Source: Winogradskyella aurantiaca
GTDB taxonomy: Bacteria; Bacteroidota; Bacteroidia; Flavobacteriales; Flavobacteriaceae
Length of the DNA: 64,000 nucleotides
Assembly: GCF_003362725.1 (NCBI RefSeq)
Contig: NZ_QKTV01000003.1
Location: 1 to 64,000 of the forward strand
Reading direction: 5' to 3'
The notes under the pieces are model-generated. The model was not told where the DNA came from, did not search any database, and worked only from the letters and a program-made list of their open reading frames with translations. A program made the position numbers and the translations under genes. This document shows positions 630 to 7,716 of this stretch, one piece after another (the stretch's first letter is position 1; each line of letters opens with the position of its first letter).

Positions 630-3600
630 ACGATTACTCCACAGACACCTGTTTGCTCTGAAGACCTTTTAACTTATTCTGTTGCATTCTCAAGTAATGG
701 AACAGTAACTGTAAAAGAAGATATCCAAGGTATTGTTGTTGCTAATGGTTCTGTATCTGGAATCCCTGCTGGTCAAAACATTACCCTTGTAGCCACTAGT
801 ACTGATCAATGTACAGCTGAAGCTATTATAACAGCTCCAGATTGTAGTTGTCCTGTAGTAGAAGTTCCTCAGGCCTCTGATCAGGCAGAGTGTGACTCTG
901 GTCAAACTCTTACTGCTTCGGCAACAGCTGGTAATGGTGAAGTCATTGACTGGTTCGATGCTCAGAACAATCCAGTACAAGATCCGTCATTAAGTAATGT
1001 TGGTATGGTTACTTATTTTGCGCAAGCAAGAAATACTACAACCAATTGTACTTCTGCTAAGATTCCTGTTAAACTTGAAATCTATGCACTTCCAGATGCA
1101 CCTGAGACAACACCACTGTCATATTGTATAGGTGAAACTCCTGATGATATTGAATCATCTGTTACAGCTACAGGAACTCTAAAATGGTATTCAGACGAGA
1201 ACGGTATCAATCAATTAGATGGAGCACCAAGCATTGATACAAACAGTGCTTCAGTTGAGACCTATTATGTTACTCAAATTGATGGTAACTCTTGTGAAAG
1301 TTTACCAACCATGATTCAGGTAACGGTTTACCCAGACCCAACAATTGAGATAATTTCTAAGGAATGTTCAGAAGATGCTTTAACCTATAGCATTACGTTT
1401 GAATCCAATGGAGAGGTAGAAAGTTCGGCCGGTGAAGTGGATAACGAGAATGGTATTGTTTCGGGCATTCCATCTGGTGAATCTGTATTACTTATGGTTG
1501 TTTCAGAGAATGAATGCGAAATCCAAGAGGAAGTTGAGGCAGAAGTGTGTACAGATGTACAACTAGACTTTAGTAGCTTCTGTTTTGAAGACGGTGCCTA
1601 TTTAGACTATGATGTTAAATTAATTGGTCTACCAGACGTAACAAGTTTTACCATTACCTGGAAAGACAATGATGGGGCCACAGTGGATACAGACGAAATA
1701 GAACTTGAGAATGGCATGGCTTCCGGTTGGATCCCATGGCCAGGAATAGTCTTAGATGAAAATGATGTGGTTATAGATTGGCCAGGTTGGGTATTAGAAG
1801 ACGACGTATGGGTAATGGGTGATGATGGATTTGAAGATCTAAGACCTACAGCTGATATTGAAGTTTCCTTTAACTCTGGAAACGGTGGACGCTTTATGGG
1901 ACCAAATGCTTCTCTTAATAATGAGGAGGATGGAGTTATGCCACAAGAGTTTAAGGTGGCCTACCCACCAGGAACACCTCAGTGTAACCCTAATCCACCT
2001 GAAGAAGATCCATGTGTATTATATGGTGGTATTGCCGATGATTTATATCAAGTTAAAGATCATACGAGAGAGGCTGAAAACTACAAACACAGTGTTTGGG
2101 TCAACGGATTCCCATGTCAAGGTGCTAAAGCCAACTTTAGTTTTGATGATGACATGTATAAAGGATACGCCTATACGCTATTAAGTAATGGAAACTTCGT
2201 AATTACTGGAACGGCGGTCTTAAGTGGAATCCAAAATAACAATTGTGAAGATGATTATGAAGGTTCTGTGTGGAGCGTGTATTTCGAGTTTGCACCTATT
2301 GAAGATATTTCAGGAGTAGATCCGTTTAGTGCTCATGGTTTTGACGACACTGGATTCCCTGAAGATCCAATCTGGGATTATTATGAACTCGTTCCTGGAA
2401 GAGGAGAAATGACTTTATTGGAAGGAGATTTTGAATATGATGCCATCACCTTCACTAAAATGGATAACGATTATGCCTTCCAGGTTGGTGATGGTGCCAA
2501 TGCTAAAAACAGTGGATTAGGGGCTGCTAGCTGGTTAAACTATACAGTTTGGAGTGATGGACAAGAAGCCTATTCTAATTCAGGTGCTATTCACGCCGAT
2601 ATTAATGTTAACCTTCACGAGATTATTTGTGAGCCAGTATTTGAAGAAGATCCAATTTGTGAGACTTATGCGTCGTTCTACGCACACAATGGACCTAACA
2701 ATGCTTCAAGTATCATTTATGGTGTTGAGTTTGAGAACGGAAATGCAACGTTCACCGAACTTATAGACATGGCACAATACGGAGCAAACTATAGAGTACA
2801 CATCTCATTTGATGAAGACATGAATATTCTATATACCGCTAGAAATGATGGATCCGAATTAATTTCGTTCGTCTACAACCCAGTAAGCCTTAAATGGCAA
2901 GAACTCAACAGAATCGAATTGGATGGAGTTCCTGGGGGTATTGTTCAGAATACATTCTTTAACGATATGGTGTACCTGGGCTCTAGTGTAACTAATGATA
3001 TTTATTCAGTTAACCCACTGACTGCTGCAGTTACGCATTACGATTTCACCAACTTGAATATTAATGGTGGTGACCTAGCGGTTAAGGATGGAAGAATGTT
3101 CTCTGCTAGTAGAAGTGGCAGAAAAATCTACTTATTAGATTTCGACTCACTAACTGGAAGCGTTATTAATAATAATCAGGGAACTCCAGCTCAGGTTAAC
3201 GGATTTGGATTATCACTTGGTGGAAACTTTGTAATGACTAATGATGGTGCTAACGTTGTCTATGTTCTTGACAATAACGGTGCTGAATTAGGATCTTATA
3301 ATGTCGTAGCCGATTTCGATCAATTAATGGATGGTGATTTTGCTGCAGGTTGTGTAGGTCGTGATGAAGATCCACAAGATCCATGTGAGGATTATAAAGC
3401 CTTCTATGCTGATCATAATGGTGGAGATACCCGTCTTTACGGTGTGTCACTGGATGACAACTCCTTAGTTGCTGACTTTGATTTCATTACTTCATTACCA
3501 TATCAGGCACATATAACACTGAATACTACAGATGGTTATGTCTATGCTGTTGATGAAGACGATAATAAAATCTATAAGATCAATCCTAATGGTGGTACTA

Positions 3601-4997
3601 CAGAAGATGTAATTACGCTTAATGCAACCGACGGATCGTCTATTAATTCTATCTATTGTATGGCCTTCTTTGAAGATAAGATCTATTTAGGCTCTGCTCA
3701 AAAAGACCAGATTTATGAAGTAGAATTGGATGGTGATTATTCAGTCATTGCTTCTGAAGTACCTGTACAAGGTGGTGATCTAATTTTCAGAAATAATAGA
3801 CTGTACCTAGCTACAAGGGCTCAAAACAAATTGTATTTCATTGCTGGTGGACCAGATAGTGAAATTCATGTAGGAGATATTGCAGGCAAAGTAAATGGAC
3901 TGGCATTAAATGCTTCTAATGAGTTCATAACTACCAACTATGGTCACAACAAAGTATATCGTTATGACGGAAATGGTGGAGCGCTTGCACCTTATACGGT
4001 GAGCGGTGATCTCACAACATTTAAAAATGGAGACTTGGCTTCCGGCTGTACTTCAGCTGATCCAGAACCATTGTGTGATGTTGCAACATTTGATAACCCA
4101 GGTGCTGAGGGTGCACAAATAGCTAAGGATGATCCTCAGAATAATGACTTCAATAATGGTTGGCATCAGTATTCTGCTAATCAGGAACCTTCTTGGTTAG
4201 GATGGTCTACAACTACTTCAATTGAAGTTCAGGAAACTGGTCGTATTGATGGTAACGATTCGTTCTGTGGTAATTTCCACTTCGAATTATTGAGTAGAGC
4301 AGAAGGTGATAACATGTATCAGGTAGTAACAACGCAGCCTAATACAACAGTTTATCTGAGCTTCTACCATAAGAAACGTAGACAAAACAACATAGTAAAT
4401 GTCATGGATGTTCTTGTAGGCTCTGAGTCTGACTTCGATCCAGAAGATCATTCAGAAAACACCACGTACGGCCTGTCGGTTGTTGAGACTATAGTAAGAA
4501 CCTGGGAAGATGGCTGGGAGTTTGTTCAAATTGCCATTGAGCCAGATAGTGATAGCACCGTTATTATGTTGAGAGGACAATCCGGTACCACAACTTCTGT
4601 AGGTAACTTAATTGATGATGTTTACATCGGATGTGAGATGCAAGAGGAGAGAGAGCCATGTAACGGAGACGATAACAATGATGTCCCACCATTAACTCCA
4701 CATGATGGCGCTTACTCAGATCTTATGATTGATGCAAGTCGTGTTAGTTTGTATCCAGTACCAGCTCATAGAGACTTATCAATTAAAATTGATAATAGTG
4801 GACAAAAGGTCACTGGAACATATTACATTACATCAATCAATGGTAGAACTGGGCATAAAGGAGAGATTCATGTCATTGATGGCGAGAGTGATATTGTTAA
4901 GGAAGATGTTTCTGATTTACCAGACGGTATGTATTTCTTAATGTTAGAAATAAATGGTCGTGTAATTTCTAAACAATTCATGAAAATATCCAACTAA
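1..4997 (+). CDS. Giant T9SS-secreted adhesin-like protein with Ig/PKD-like repeats (5' partial)
   Basis: The reading frame (codons starting at position 3) is open from the left edge to the stop at 4995-4997, giving about 1664 visible residues of a longer protein. It starts with three Cys-containing 71-residue Ig/PKD-like repeats, followed by further Ig-like modules up to about 1350. Two homologous modules (about 2650-3360 and 3365-4065) both begin with an acidic DPxC-like segment and end in a D/N-G-D-x-A-x-G-C motif; they look like propeller or lectin-like domains. A jelly-roll-like domain lies at 4075-4640. The last 84 residues, from VSLYPVPAHRD, match a type IX secretion C-terminal sorting domain, so export to the surface or medium is expected. 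Many D/N/E residues suggest calcium binding. An internal ATG at 1005 is not the true start. A role in adhesion or gliding is inferred from architecture. Confidence 0.85.
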   Translation, partial: TDVDPVCIDASSFQLQASPAGGTWSGDVDANGNFNPANGSGSATYTYKDGNGCENSDTVQITVNPLPEVSITDVDPVCIDASSFQLQASPAGGTWSGDVDANGNFNPANGSGSATYTYKDGNGCENSDTVQITVNPLPEVSITDVDPVCIDASSFQLQASPAGGTWSGDVDANGNFNPANGSGSATYTYEDGNGCENSDTVQITVNPLPTITPQTPVCSEDLLTYSVAFSSNGTVTVKEDIQGIVVANGSVSGIPAGQNITLVATSTDQCTAEAIITAPDCSCPVVEVPQASDQAECDSGQTLTASATAGNGEVIDWFDAQNNPVQDPSLSNVGMVTYFAQARNTTTNCTSAKIPVKLEIYALPDAPETTPLSYCIGETPDDIESSVTATGTLKWYSDENGINQLDGAPSIDTNSASVETYYVTQIDGNSCESLPTMIQVTVYPDPTIEIISKECSEDALTYSITFESNGEVESSAGEVDNENGIVSGIPSGESVLLMVVSENECEIQEEVEAEVCTDVQLDFSSFCFEDGAYLDYDVKLIGLPDVTSFTITWKDNDGATVDTDEIELENGMASGWIPWPGIVLDENDVVIDWPGWVLEDDVWVMGDDGFEDLRPTADIEVSFNSGNGGRFMGPNASLNNEEDGVMPQEFKVAYPPGTPQCNPNPPEEDPCVLYGGIADDLYQVKDHTREAENYKHSVWVNGFPCQGAKANFSFDDDMYKGYAYTLLSNGNFVITGTAVLSGIQNNNCEDDYEGSVWSVYFEFAPIEDISGVDPFSAHGFDDTGFPEDPIWDYYELVPGRGEMTLLEGDFEYDAITFTKMDNDYAFQVGDGANAKNSGLGAASWLNYTVWSDGQEAYSNSGAIHADINVNLHEIICEPVFEEDPICETYASFYAHNGPNNASSIIYGVEFENGNATFTELIDMAQYGANYRVHISFDEDMNILYTARNDGSELISFVYNPVSLKWQELNRIELDGVPGGIVQNTFFNDMVYLGSSVTNDIYSVNPLTAAVTHYDFTNLNINGGDLAVKDGRMFSASRSGRKIYLLDFDSLTGSVINNNQGTPAQVNGFGLSLGGNFVMTNDGANVVYVLDNNGAELGSYNVVADFDQLMDGDFAAGCVGRDEDPQDPCEDYKAFYADHNGGDTRLYGVSLDDNSLVADFDFITSLPYQAHITLNTTDGYVYAVDEDDNKIYKINPNGGTTEDVITLNATDGSSINSIYCMAFFEDKIYLGSAQKDQIYEVELDGDYSVIASEVPVQGGDLIFRNNRLYLATRAQNKLYFIAGGPDSEIHVGDIAGKVNGLALNASNEFITTNYGHNKVYRYDGNGGALAPYTVSGDLTTFKNGDLASGCTSADPEPLCDVATFDNPGAEGAQIAKDDPQNNDFNNGWHQYSANQEPSWLGWSTTTSIEVQETGRIDGNDSFCGNFHFELLSRAEGDNMYQVVTTQPNTTVYLSFYHKKRRQNNIVNVMDVLVGSESDFDPEDHSENTTYGLSVVETIVRTWEDGWEFVQIAIEPDSDSTVIMLRGQSGTTTSVGNLIDDVYIGCEMQEEREPCNGDDNNDVPPLTPHDGAYSDLMIDASRVSLYPVPAHRDLSIKIDNSGQKVTGTYYITSINGRTGHKGEIHVIDGESDIVKEDVSDLPDGMYFLMLEINGRVISKQFMKISN

Positions 4998-5021: not shown

Positions 5022-5052
5022 AAAAACCACGCCTAATAAGCGTGGTTTTTTT
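5022..5052 (+). terminator. Rho-independent terminator after the adhesin gene
   Basis: An 11-bp stem (AAAAACCACGC pairing with GCGTGGTTTTT) encloses a 7-nt loop, with a T-run at 5046-5052. It starts 25 bp after the adhesin stop codon. Confidence 0.85.
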
Positions 5053-5155
5053 GTATCTTAAAGCGAAACCTAATCTTTATCATGTTTTTGGCCGTTGTTG
5101 GTTCGTACTTTTAATGTACGCATTTCACTGAAGTTTTAACTAAATCAAAGTTCAT

Positions 5156-7276
5156 ATGAAAGAATTCGACAACAAGCACATCAAAAATGTGGCTTTTGTT
5201 GGTGCCCACAGAGCCGGTAAAACAACACTTGCAGAGACCATGTTGTTTGAAGCCGGCTTAATTAACAGACGCGGCACTGTAGAACAGCAAAATACGGTTT
5301 CTGATTATCACGAATTTGAGCACCAACGCGGTGCTTCTGTTTTTGCTACCCCTTTGCATACAGAGTGGCGTAACTATAAAATCAACATTATAGATACGCC
5401 TGGATTGGATGATTTTATTGGAGAGATTATGTCCTCCATTCGGGTGGCAGATACAATTGTTACGGTTATCAATGCCAAACATGGAGCCGATATTGGTACT
5501 GAGATTATTTGGAATTATGTAGACAAGTACCACAAACCAACACTTTTTGTAATTAATAAGATTGATAGTGAAAAGGCCAAGTTTGATGAAAGTGTTGAAA
5601 ACTTAAAAAGTCTAGTAGGTAACAATGCGGTACTTATTCAATACCCCATTAATTTAGATGGAGCTCAGGCCATCATAGACGTACTGAAAATGAAGTGCTA
5701 TAAGTTTGGTCCCGAAGGTGGTAAGCCAGAAAAACTACCTATCCCAGAAGATCAGTTAGATCGTGCCAATTACTTGCATAACGAGCTCGTGGAGAAGGCC
5801 GCCGAGAATGATGAAGAACTCTTAGAACTCTTTTTTGATAAAGGTACTCTTAACGAAGACGAATTACGTCAAGGCTTAAAGCAAGGGATGCTTAACCACG
5901 ACGTATTTCCAGTGTTCTGCGTATCTGCTTTAAATGATATGGGAACTGGCCGTTTAATGGGATTCATTGATAATGTAGCACCTGCTGCGGCTGACTTAAA
6001 ACCTGAGCAAACTATTGAGGGGGGATTGGTAACCCCTAATCTAGAAGATGACACCTCACTCTTTATTTTCAAAACCATCTACCAACCAAATCTCGGGCAG
6101 ATTACCTTCTTTAAGGTGATGTCTGGCGAAGTGCACACCAACGATAAACTTTACAATACCAGAACCGGTGAGAGTGAAACCCTTAACCAACTCTACATCA
6201 TGGACGGTAAGGAAAAGCATCCAGTTCAAAAGTTAACTGTTGGCGATATTGGAGCCACAACTAAATTAAAATATACCGACACCAATGATACTCTGGCTAC
6301 TAAGGCCGAAGCAGGTACCATTAAACCTATTAAATTCCCTCAGCCACGTGTTTTAAAGGCCGTATTTGCAGAATCCAATTCAGATGAAGAGAAACTATCT
6401 GATGCCCTAAAACGCATACATAGTCAGGATTTTACAGTTGATCTCAGTTATAACAACGAGACACATCAAACCATTGTAGGAACGCAAGGAGAATTGCATC
6501 TAGCAACTCTCAATTGGATCTTGGAAAATATTTATGGTGTAAAAGCGCGTTTTGAAAATCCAAAAATATCCTATAGAGAAACCATTCAACGTAGTGCAAC
6601 GGCTAACTACCGGCACAAGAAACAGAGTGGGGGAGCTGGACAATTTGGTCAGGTACATTTAAAAATTGAACCCTGGTACGAAGGAATTCCAGAGCCAGAA
6701 GGCTTCTCACTTCGAGGAAAAGAAGTTGTGGACTTACCCTGGGACGGAAAATTAGTATTCTACAATTGCATAGTTGGCGGTGTCATCGATCAACGTTATT
6801 TGCCATCCATCATGAAGGGTATTTTGGAAGTCATGGAGAATGGACCATTAACTAATTCCTATGCTCGTGATATTAGAGTAATGGTTTATGATGGGAAAAT
6901 GCACTCCGTTGATTCCAATGATATTTCCTTTAAAATAGCAGGATCTCACGCCTTTAAAGAAGCATTTATAAATGCCAACCCTAAACTTCTAGAGCCAACA
7001 GAATTATTGACCTTAAGAGCTCCTGAAGAAATGGTAGGAGGAGTTATGACAGAACTACAGAGTAGACGTTCCATTATTCAAGGTATCGAGACTGAAGACC
7101 ATTATCAGGTATTACGATGTATCATACCAAGTGCTGAGATGTCTGACTTCTCAACACAACTGCGATCCCTCACACAAGGTAGAGCTACTTATACGACAAA
7201 ATCTGAAGGTTATAGTCCTGTCCCTGCACATGTGCAAAAAGAACTAATTAAAGAACAAGAATTAATAACAACATAA
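5156..7276 (+). CDS. Elongation factor G paralogue with degenerate GTPase motifs
   Basis: The 706-residue protein has the full EF-G layout: G domain (about 1-280), domain II with the usual FFKVMSGEV-type segment, and domains III-V, including a GQFGQVHLKIEP-like segment of domain IV. The P-loop is intact (GAHRAGKTT, 16-24), as are NKID (134-137) and SAL. The switch regions deviate: canonical RGIT is RGAS (58-61), and canonical DTPGHVDF is DTPGLDDF (80-87), so the GTPase-activating histidine is Leu84. This is probably not the housekeeping fusA. EF-G2 paralogues of Bacteroidetes have been reported to support translocation without GTP hydrolysis; applying that here is inference. The following small gene starts 10 bp downstream, so the two are probably co-transcribed. 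Confidence 0.88.
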   Translation: MKEFDNKHIKNVAFVGAHRAGKTTLAETMLFEAGLINRRGTVEQQNTVSDYHEFEHQRGASVFATPLHTEWRNYKINIIDTPGLDDFIGEIMSSIRVADTIVTVINAKHGADIGTEIIWNYVDKYHKPTLFVINKIDSEKAKFDESVENLKSLVGNNAVLIQYPINLDGAQAIIDVLKMKCYKFGPEGGKPEKLPIPEDQLDRANYLHNELVEKAAENDEELLELFFDKGTLNEDELRQGLKQGMLNHDVFPVFCVSALNDMGTGRLMGFIDNVAPAAADLKPEQTIEGGLVTPNLEDDTSLFIFKTIYQPNLGQITFFKVMSGEVHTNDKLYNTRTGESETLNQLYIMDGKEKHPVQKLTVGDIGATTKLKYTDTNDTLATKAEAGTIKPIKFPQPRVLKAVFAESNSDEEKLSDALKRIHSQDFTVDLSYNNETHQTIVGTQGELHLATLNWILENIYGVKARFENPKISYRETIQRSATANYRHKKQSGGAGQFGQVHLKIEPWYEGIPEPEGFSLRGKEVVDLPWDGKLVFYNCIVGGVIDQRYLPSIMKGILEVMENGPLTNSYARDIRVMVYDGKMHSVDSNDISFKIAGSHAFKEAFINANPKLLEPTELLTLRAPEEMVGGVMTELQSRRSIIQGIETEDHYQVLRCIIPSAEMSDFSTQLRSLTQGRATYTTKSEGYSPVPAHVQKELIKEQELITT

Positions 7277-7286
7277 ATAGACCGGT

Positions 7287-7667
7287 ATGCTAAGCAAAGT
7301 TATGTATTTAAGCGATCTTCAGTTCAATATTGATACCTGGAAGCGCGAATTACGATTTCATTTTAATGAAATGGATACCTTCCAGGAAAAACTAGAAGAA
7401 GCTGTTTCAAGAATTGAAGACCCTATTGCTCTAAAGAAATTAGAGATGTTTCAAAATAGAATTATGATAGAAAAGGACGCTATTTCTAAACTCATGCATC
7501 GATGTAAAAACAAAGCCATTAGCATTAGAAATGTTGATTTCAACGAATCTATTGACGGACGATTACAAACCGAGCAATACACCCTAAAAGATGATATGCG
7601 TACCTACATTAAATTGCATTACGATCTTAAAGAGGAAATGATGGATTATTTTCTCGAGGTGCTATAA
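7287..7667 (+). CDS. Small helical protein of unknown function downstream of the EF-G paralogue
   Basis: The 126-residue protein has no signal peptide or membrane segment. It is rich in Lys, Glu, Met and Leu with heptad-like spacing, so it is probably an all-alpha cytosolic protein with coiled-coil potential. It starts 10 bp after the EF-G paralogue and ends just before a strong hairpin, so the pair forms a closed unit. An alternative start is the ATG at 7305. I do not recognise the family. A partner role for the elongation factor is only a guess from position. Confidence 0.7.
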   Translation: MLSKVMYLSDLQFNIDTWKRELRFHFNEMDTFQEKLEEAVSRIEDPIALKKLEMFQNRIMIEKDAISKLMHRCKNKAISIRNVDFNESIDGRLQTEQYTLKDDMRTYIKLHYDLKEEMMDYFLEVL

Positions 7668-7685
7668 ATAGACTTCTAATCAATT

Positions 7686-7715
7686 AAAAAAGACCACGTT
7701 TTAGTGGTCTTTTTT
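7686..7715. terminator. Bidirectional terminator between convergent genes
   Basis: A perfect 12-bp stem (AAAAAAGACCAC with GTGGTCTTTTTT) encloses the loop GTTTTA. The A-run and T-run let it work in both directions. It sits between gene ends at 7667 (plus) and 7717 (minus). Confidence 0.88.
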
Positions 7716-7716
7716 A

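Follow-up and report, generated by a model that had tools for sequence, protein, structure and literature searches.

Whether translocation requires GTP hydrolysis is an old question, and the second EF-G (EF-G2) of Bacteroides, cited as devoid of GTPase activity (PMC12775393, PMC10294740), has been cited as a natural case against this requirement (PMC12775393). In this genus, the carbon regulator Cur controls the EF-G2 gene, fusA2 (PMC6989115). The EFG II subfamily (PMC3150367, PMC4342817) groups extra EF-Gs found beside EFG I that carry a Ser instead of a Thr in the G2 motif and keep DxPG, NKxD and GKT; the Thr-to-Ser change in switch I, or relaxed G2 motif, was published in 2011 (PMC3150367) and the P-loop Gly in 2015 (PMC4342817). 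Two EF-G-2 proteins from outside the Bacteroidota were reported to behave differently: that of Thermus thermophilus binds and hydrolyses GTP and is active in poly(Phe) synthesis, whereas that of Mycobacterium smegmatis binds guanine nucleotides without ribosome-dependent GTPase activity (PMC3150367). The available text of the EFG II accounts (PMC3150367, PMC4342817) makes no mention of a p126-like partner or of an FNR-type promoter, both of which are described below, and none of the papers listed by the literature searches links EF-G2 to a lack of oxygen or to these organisms.

The present analysis concerns a 64,000-nt stretch of DNA (the window; contig C19 of a 3.1-Mb genome) in which positions 5156-7667 appear to form a two-gene unit encoding an EFG II-type EF-G (hereafter EF-G2) and a small, predicted helical-bundle protein (p126), all features of this locus being on the + strand. 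As an earlier note on this DNA stated, ORF 5156-7276 encodes 706 aa; its product contains the Pfam domains EF-G G, II, III, IV and V. The gene of p126 (7287-7667; 126 aa) starts 10 nt past the EF-G2 stop. A hairpin scan showed that the pair is flanked on both sides by terminator-like hairpins, one closing the upstream gene 1005-4997 (5022-5050) and one located 3′ of p126 (7685-7716), the whole stretch carrying three such hairpins compared to 1.8 in shuffles. The same genome encodes a canonical EF-G on another contig (G000:C25:80220-82322), so that EF-G2 is not its only EF-G, a possibility that the earlier note had raised against its own reading.

EF-G2 is a member of the known EFG II/EF-G2 subfamily, and this assignment is well supported by comparisons with profiles, PDB sequences and a tree. 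It exceeds the curated cut-off of NCBIfam NF009381 (PRK12740.1-5; 851.7 bits, cut-off 583). The highest score was reached with EFG2_Bacteroid (NF058620, an exception model), at 923.9 bits for a cut-off of 1000, and the protein stays below the cut-offs of the canonical EF-G model TIGR00484 (503 bits, cut-off 659.4; Leu at the position of the switch II His) and of the ribosomal protection protein (Tet) model NF012153 (271.8 bits, cut-off 775). Its G2 motif is RGASV, with the Ser characteristic of EFG II (xxxSx compared to RGITI) at the Thr position. The Gly commonly found in EFG II at the P-loop Asp position is replaced by Arg; this Gly was not used to define EFG II since 25 of 155 members deviate. 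EF-G2 is 46.7-48.2% identical to five Bacteroides-type EF-G2s (families f11 and f12) and 30.2% identical to the canonical EF-G of the same genome. A tree of 95 chosen rows was obtained by a quick method with a long-branch warning, and its deep forks are not relied on. In this tree, the 83 EF-G2s are separated from the 12 EF-Gs (SH-aLRT 100), the window EF-G2 is placed in a 41-row clade of family f1, taken as Flavobacteriaceae (support 100), and this clade shares one 61-row group with the Bacteroides-type clade (support 96). One f1 row (L048) clusters with family f4. The top PDB match of EF-G2 is 7uvp/8dmf (709 bits, full-length). The kinship with Bacteroides EF-G2 that was initially suspected is thus borne out by the tree, by the best NCBIfam model and by the best PDB match. 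It should also be mentioned that 7uvp/8dmf was deposited as "Tetracycline resistance protein TetQ", yet its sequence is that of a Bacteroides-type EF-G2, because the top EFG2_Bacteroid census member (L021; 1396 bits) aligns with this chain end to end (1288 bits); therefore, searches based on names would miss this EF-G2 structure. An AlphaFold model of the window EF-G2, built with 44 close sequences, reached a pLDDT of 57 and was set aside as poor.

Like B. thetaiotaomicron EF-G2 (fusA2, BT2167), the window protein is a second EF-G of this subfamily that lacks the switch II His and the P-loop Asp and keeps domain IV. However, the two systems differ by their motifs (RGASV/DTPGLDDF in the window compared to YGYSV/DCPGSDDF in Bacteroides), by the score of the window protein below the NF058620 cut-off, by a CRP/FNR-type dyad of another form, with no Cur site seen, and by the adjacent p126 gene. 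The lack of the switch II His and the status of second EF-G are also shared with T. thermophilus EF-G-2 (1wdt/2dy1), but this protein is more distant (311 bits) and was reported to hydrolyse GTP (PMC3150367). M. smegmatis EF-G-2 belongs to another phylum and is likened to the window protein by description only.

Alignment located the P-loop (GAHRAGKTT, aa 16-24; 5201-5227), switch I (RGAS instead of the canonical RGIT, aa 58-61; 5327-5338; Ser for the Mg-binding Thr), switch II (DTPGLDDF, aa 80-87; 5393-5416; Leu for the conserved His) and the G4 motif (NKID, aa 134-137; 5555-5566), as well as the domain IV loop SGGAGQFG (6626-6649) and tip HSVDSND (6902-6922). All the motifs listed in the earlier note are therefore present in the ORF, and its statement that the P-loop remains is right for G-x4-GKT, but not for the Asp of translational GTPases, which is an Arg here. 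We extended this comparison to 155 different EF-G2 genes, aligned with 30 canonical EF-Gs (30 of the 34 matches in 30 genomes, four second copies being left out). These genes come from a family draw of 60 genomes, 12 of which had an EF-G2-type match (EFG2_Bacteroid, E ≤ 1e-150 or 1e-170), and from a phylum draw of 395 genomes, 145 of which had one. The switch II His, present in 30/30 canonical EF-Gs, is found in none of the 155 Bacteroidota EF-G2s, where it is replaced by Tyr (n = 70), Thr (n = 45), Leu (n = 21), Ser (n = 10), Phe (n = 6), Ala (n = 2) or Pro (n = 1). Likewise, the P-loop Asp is present in 30/30 canonical EF-Gs compared to 3/155 EF-G2s, 130 of which have a Gly at this position, and the switch I Thr position is occupied by Ser (n = 150) or Thr (n = 5). 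The G, K and T of GKT, the D, P and G of DxPG and the domain IV His are kept in 155/155 EF-G2s; in NKxD, the Asn and Asp are kept in 154 and the Lys in 79. These alignments show that, across the phylum, the switch II His and the P-loop Asp, two residues with catalytic side chains, were lost and that binding and translocation residues were kept. The loss of the His pointed out in the earlier note is real in the window; however, since all census EF-G2s lack the His and the relaxed G2 motif has been on record since 2011 (PMC3150367), the window EF-G2 is not an isolated oddity.

Some variants were also observed during this census. The Arg at the P-loop Asp position is found in the window EF-G2 and in two relatives (L016 and L076). 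The P-loop is GAHNSGKTT in seven family EF-G2s (L009, L012-L015, L017 and L019) and GHFNTGKTT in two distant ones (L094 and L104); an Asn at that position binds K+ in some K+-dependent GTPases such as MnmE. In four distant Bacteroidota genomes (G118, G082, G218 and G102), EF-G2 is accompanied by two matches that exceed the cut-off of canonical EF-G.

The aligned upstream regions of EF-G2 genes show a single island of conservation. In the window, a putative CRP/FNR-type dyad, AACCTAATCTTTATCATGTT (5067-5086), is located 5′ of EF-G2 and is followed, 19 nt beyond, by the sequence TACTTTT (5106-5112), which matches TAnnTTT, the Bacteroidota -7 promoter element. This spacing to the -7 element would put the dyad near -41. 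The dyad has the form TRAC-N4-RTCA and was searched as T[AG]A[CT]-N4-[AG]TCAT-N-TT. Of 74 named upstream regions, 65 have this site, as do 20 of the 41 regions from the family census; these two sets overlap partly, and the sites of related species in them are not independent. The backwards pattern was found in neither set. It was absent from 21 of the 41 family census regions and from the 38 EF-G2 upstream regions outside the family. The 74 named regions come from 79 loci, five of which (L228, L258, L276, L280 and L285) were dropped because they were truncated or had an unclear start; L333 and four distant rows were left out as they had no usable upstream region. Although it was not included in the search pattern, TAnnTTT lies exactly 19 nt after the dyad in 67 of the 71 distinct sites. 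The arrangement of a CRP/FNR-type promoter, i.e., a dyad resembling TGA-N6-TCA, the core common to CRP and FNR sites, at a fixed distance from a -7 element, was thus found. The left half-site in the window, TAAT (TAA and not TGA), is weaker than the TGAC or TGAT of most of the genome matches described below. Overall, this predicted promoter architecture is well supported, and such a dyad-promoter upstream of EF-G2 appears to be new. The Cur consensus TATGTTnTAnAACATA was not found within 3 mismatches upstream of EF-G2 in the window (best site in its 400 nt, 5 mismatches); among 30 family upstream regions, the best site (2 mismatches) is 367 nt upstream of L239, far from the promoter. This promoter therefore does not point to the starvation trigger envisaged in the earlier note, a CRP/FNR-type dyad being found instead of a Cur site.

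The AlphaFold model of p126 is a three-helix bundle (pLDDT 89). Comparisons of p126 and 34 aligned relatives with Pfam, NCBIfam and PDB sequences revealed no convincing family (scattered matches of one or a few members, lowest E 5e-4), and Foldseek retrieved nothing at E ≤ 0.001 with the p126 model. VIA-align gave Z values up to 14 with unrelated helical proteins, a range that, according to the tool, may mean only a common arrangement. The idea of a likeness to domain I of the ribosome recycling factor received no support in the 50 top rows of Foldseek and of VIA-align. When p126 was aligned with 17 close relatives and this alignment used as a query, 182 named relatives were retrieved, of which the best 80, all of them near relatives, were examined. 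EF-G2 is directly upstream in 79 of these 80 loci, some of which are cut by a contig end; the only exception, L279, has another gene upstream. Within these best 80 of 182, the closest loci are mostly from Winogradskyella (identity up to 88%), which points to a marine flavobacterium belonging or close to this genus as the probable source of the window. The small partner proposed in the earlier note is thus conserved beside EF-G2 and looks co-transcribed with it, and this link between p126 and EF-G2 appears to be new.

Among 199 family genomes, 40 carry EF-G2 and 42 any p126 match. The close form of p126 (E < 1e-25) is present in 25 genomes, all of them among the 40 EF-G2-positive ones; 18 of these genes are adjacent to EF-G2 and seven are located elsewhere. 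Linked and unlinked close p126 genes belong to one clade of 25 rows, with a support of 99/100 and a bootstrap that had not settled. Of 13 independent pairs on the EF-G tree, about nine associate p126 with EF-G2 and none shows the opposite (median p 0.004). This pairs tree includes 89 family EF-Gs, from 37 of the 40 EF-G2-positive genomes (G003, G452 and G495 had no EF-G match at the threshold) and from 52 chosen EF-G2-negative genomes, eight of which were selected for their weak p126 homologue. When genomes with adjacent genes are removed, three pairs remain (p at least 0.25). In family f4, a diverged p126 homologue was found in all six EF-G2-positive genomes searched, directly upstream of EF-G2 in five of them and at another place in the remaining one; uniting the EF-G2-linked p126 of f1 and f4 in one clade gave an AU p of 0.29. 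Homologues away from EF-G2 were found in 2/4 f5 genomes and, weakly, in 1/3 f8 genomes. None (E ≤ 0.01) was detected in five Bacteroides-type genomes, the single f2 genome, the single f3 genome and 21 genomes of 21 more distant families. Since the close form is missing in 15 of the 40 EF-G2-positive family genomes and no homologue was found in the five Bacteroides-type genomes searched, EF-G2 is not dependent on p126 everywhere.

These distributions leave some room for p126 being a mere neighbour on a shared promoter, devoid of any role in translation, some of whose paralogues lie beside other genes with similar dyads. Weak p126 matches were found in 17 of the 199 family genomes, only three of which are EF-G2-positive, and show no link with EF-G2; furthermore, a dyad is present at the usual distance upstream of three of the five p126 paralogues examined (beyond 5000 shuffles), two of them also having the -7 element at the expected spacing. 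However, the close form co-occurs with EF-G2 even in the seven genomes where the two genes are unlinked, and the f4 homologue is linked to EF-G2 from the other side. Upstream of the seven unlinked close p126 genes, the dyad was found at -71 to -75 in three cases (0/5000 mononucleotide shuffles), none with the -7 element at the expected spacing; for the five f4 genes, it was found once (not significant), with this element. We regard the absence of any role in translation as a serious but somewhat doubtful possibility, and p126 is best read as a putative lineage-specific companion of EF-G2. Besides, three paralogues (L220, L222 and L223), from three genomes without any EF-G2 match, adjoin FtsH-like genes, and two of these three also adjoin AarF/UbiB-like genes (both identified by eye); L222 has a second, diverged p126 copy nearby.

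The GTP-binding motifs are retained in the window EF-G2, which is thus predicted to bind GTP as previously proposed. The accompanying claim that it hydrolyses GTP poorly is likely as well, but the missing residue alone is no proof of it. T. thermophilus EF-G-2 (1wdt) has DAPGYGDF, with a Tyr at the His position, and reportedly hydrolyses GTP (PMC3150367); therefore, the lack of this residue alone does not amount to a lost GTPase. Ribosome-stimulated hydrolysis by E. coli EF-G is reduced about 7-fold in H91A and H91R, about 100-fold in H91E and hardly in H91Q; H91A retains 28 per s compared to 202, i.e., about one seventh, and phosphate release was hit harder where it was measured (PMC4532990). 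The loss of the switch II His is thus suggestive, not decisive. These data could fit an active GTPase, working as a translocase or a recycling factor and making up for the His in some other way, as Thermus EF-G-2 reportedly does, the window protein then being simply a second EF-G under a different regulation. However, we consider this improbable: Bacteroides EF-G2, a closer relative than the Thermus protein, is cited as lacking GTPase activity, M. smegmatis EF-G-2 reportedly has no ribosome-dependent GTPase activity (PMC3150367), and the window EF-G2 has lost the P-loop Asp as well as the His. An absence of GTP hydrolysis by the window EF-G2 is therefore probable.

A scan of the own genome for the dyad and the -7 element at fixed spacing, using a second pattern taken from the multi-species footprint and not from own-genome matches, yielded 20 matches compared to four for the backwards control. 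Eighteen of them are intergenic (14% for random positions) and 16 are both intergenic and followed, at 5-70 nt, by the start of an ORF that is 130 aa or longer (1.6%), the random positions being drawn from the window and five genome stretches, some of which were chosen around matches. Two matches lack a close downstream ORF and two are inside ORFs, one match combining both. The first, more palindromic pattern, AACMTRA-N6-TYAKGTT, was discarded: in the own genome (at most 1 mismatch), it was unenriched (15 sites compared to 31 in the control), only the EF-G2 site being perfect, and in the window (at most 2 mismatches), it gave six sites compared to 5.97 expected. The genes preceded by the 20 matches include hemN, ccoS, fhs (formate-THF ligase) and the methylmalonyl-CoA epimerase gene, all above NCBIfam cut-offs, and pfl (pyruvate formate-lyase; 684 bits over the 482 residues covered, cut-off 994). 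SQR-like and thioredoxin-reductase-like oxidoreductases were found below cut-offs, and inspection by eye identified triosephosphate isomerase as well as ccoN, which lies behind ccoS. Other families are universal stress (usp), PPK2, CBS, TonB, PRK/uridine kinase, cyclase, M49 peptidase and citrate-transporter proteins; one 230-aa protein has no family match. We take hemN, ccoS, pfl, fhs and usp to be an FNR-like set; several of the genes listed are not typical FNR targets.

A CRP/FNR-family gene of the same genome (G000:C17:114984-115658, minus strand; L460:8985-9659) adjoins cbb3-type oxidase genes, and its product has the N-terminus MSKCESC, with Cys4, Cys7 and Cys29, and a CRP HTH. It was missed by a regex based on CRP-type HTH residues and found by eye. 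We consider it as a candidate activator of the EF-G2 unit, its connection to the dyad being deduced from the co-regulated genes. Flavobacteriales CRP/FNR homologues have been called MalR-like (PMC8510549). Overall, the promoter and the genes that share it suggest that the unit is controlled by a regulator of the CRP/FNR type that perhaps responds to oxygen, in contrast to Bacteroides, whose Cur responds to carbon. That the regulator would instead be a carbon-responsive CRP-family protein (Cur- or MalR-like) with altered half-sites, EF-G2 answering carbon limitation as in Bacteroides, could be argued from the control of fusA2 by Cur, from the MalR-like naming and from the core common to CRP and FNR sites, but is unlikely given the Cur searches reported above and the occurrence of the same promoter shape before genes presumed to form an FNR-like set. 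Oxygen is thus the likely signal for the EF-G2 unit.

Taken as a whole, the best explanation would be an oxygen-linked unit made of a GTP-sparing EF-G2 and p126, to which we give about an even chance of being right. Upon a fall in oxygen, an FNR-like activator bound near -41 would switch on the EF-G2/p126 unit. The loss of its catalytic residues and the retention of its binding residues make a GTP-bound, hydrolysis-poor translocase for energy crises the preferred reading of EF-G2, which would drive slow translocation with little or no GTP hydrolysis and thereby spare GTP; canonical EF-G would serve normal growth, and p126 may assist EF-G2 or the same ribosomes. A stronger version, in which marine Flavobacteriaceae would use an oxygen-sensing FNR-type regulator to switch on a hydrolysis-free EF-G and a dedicated cofactor, p126, for GTP-sparing translation in anoxia, is tentative and, in our opinion, rather doubtful. 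A marine clade with the same residue losses as Bacteroides, a conserved partner gene and an oxygen-type promoter would offer a second system whose inducing condition can be tested, and p126 would be a first candidate cofactor for such an EF-G. If this holds true, an energy-sparing EF-G would be a general device of the Bacteroidota, wired in each lineage to a different energy crisis: carbon in the gut, oxygen in the sea.
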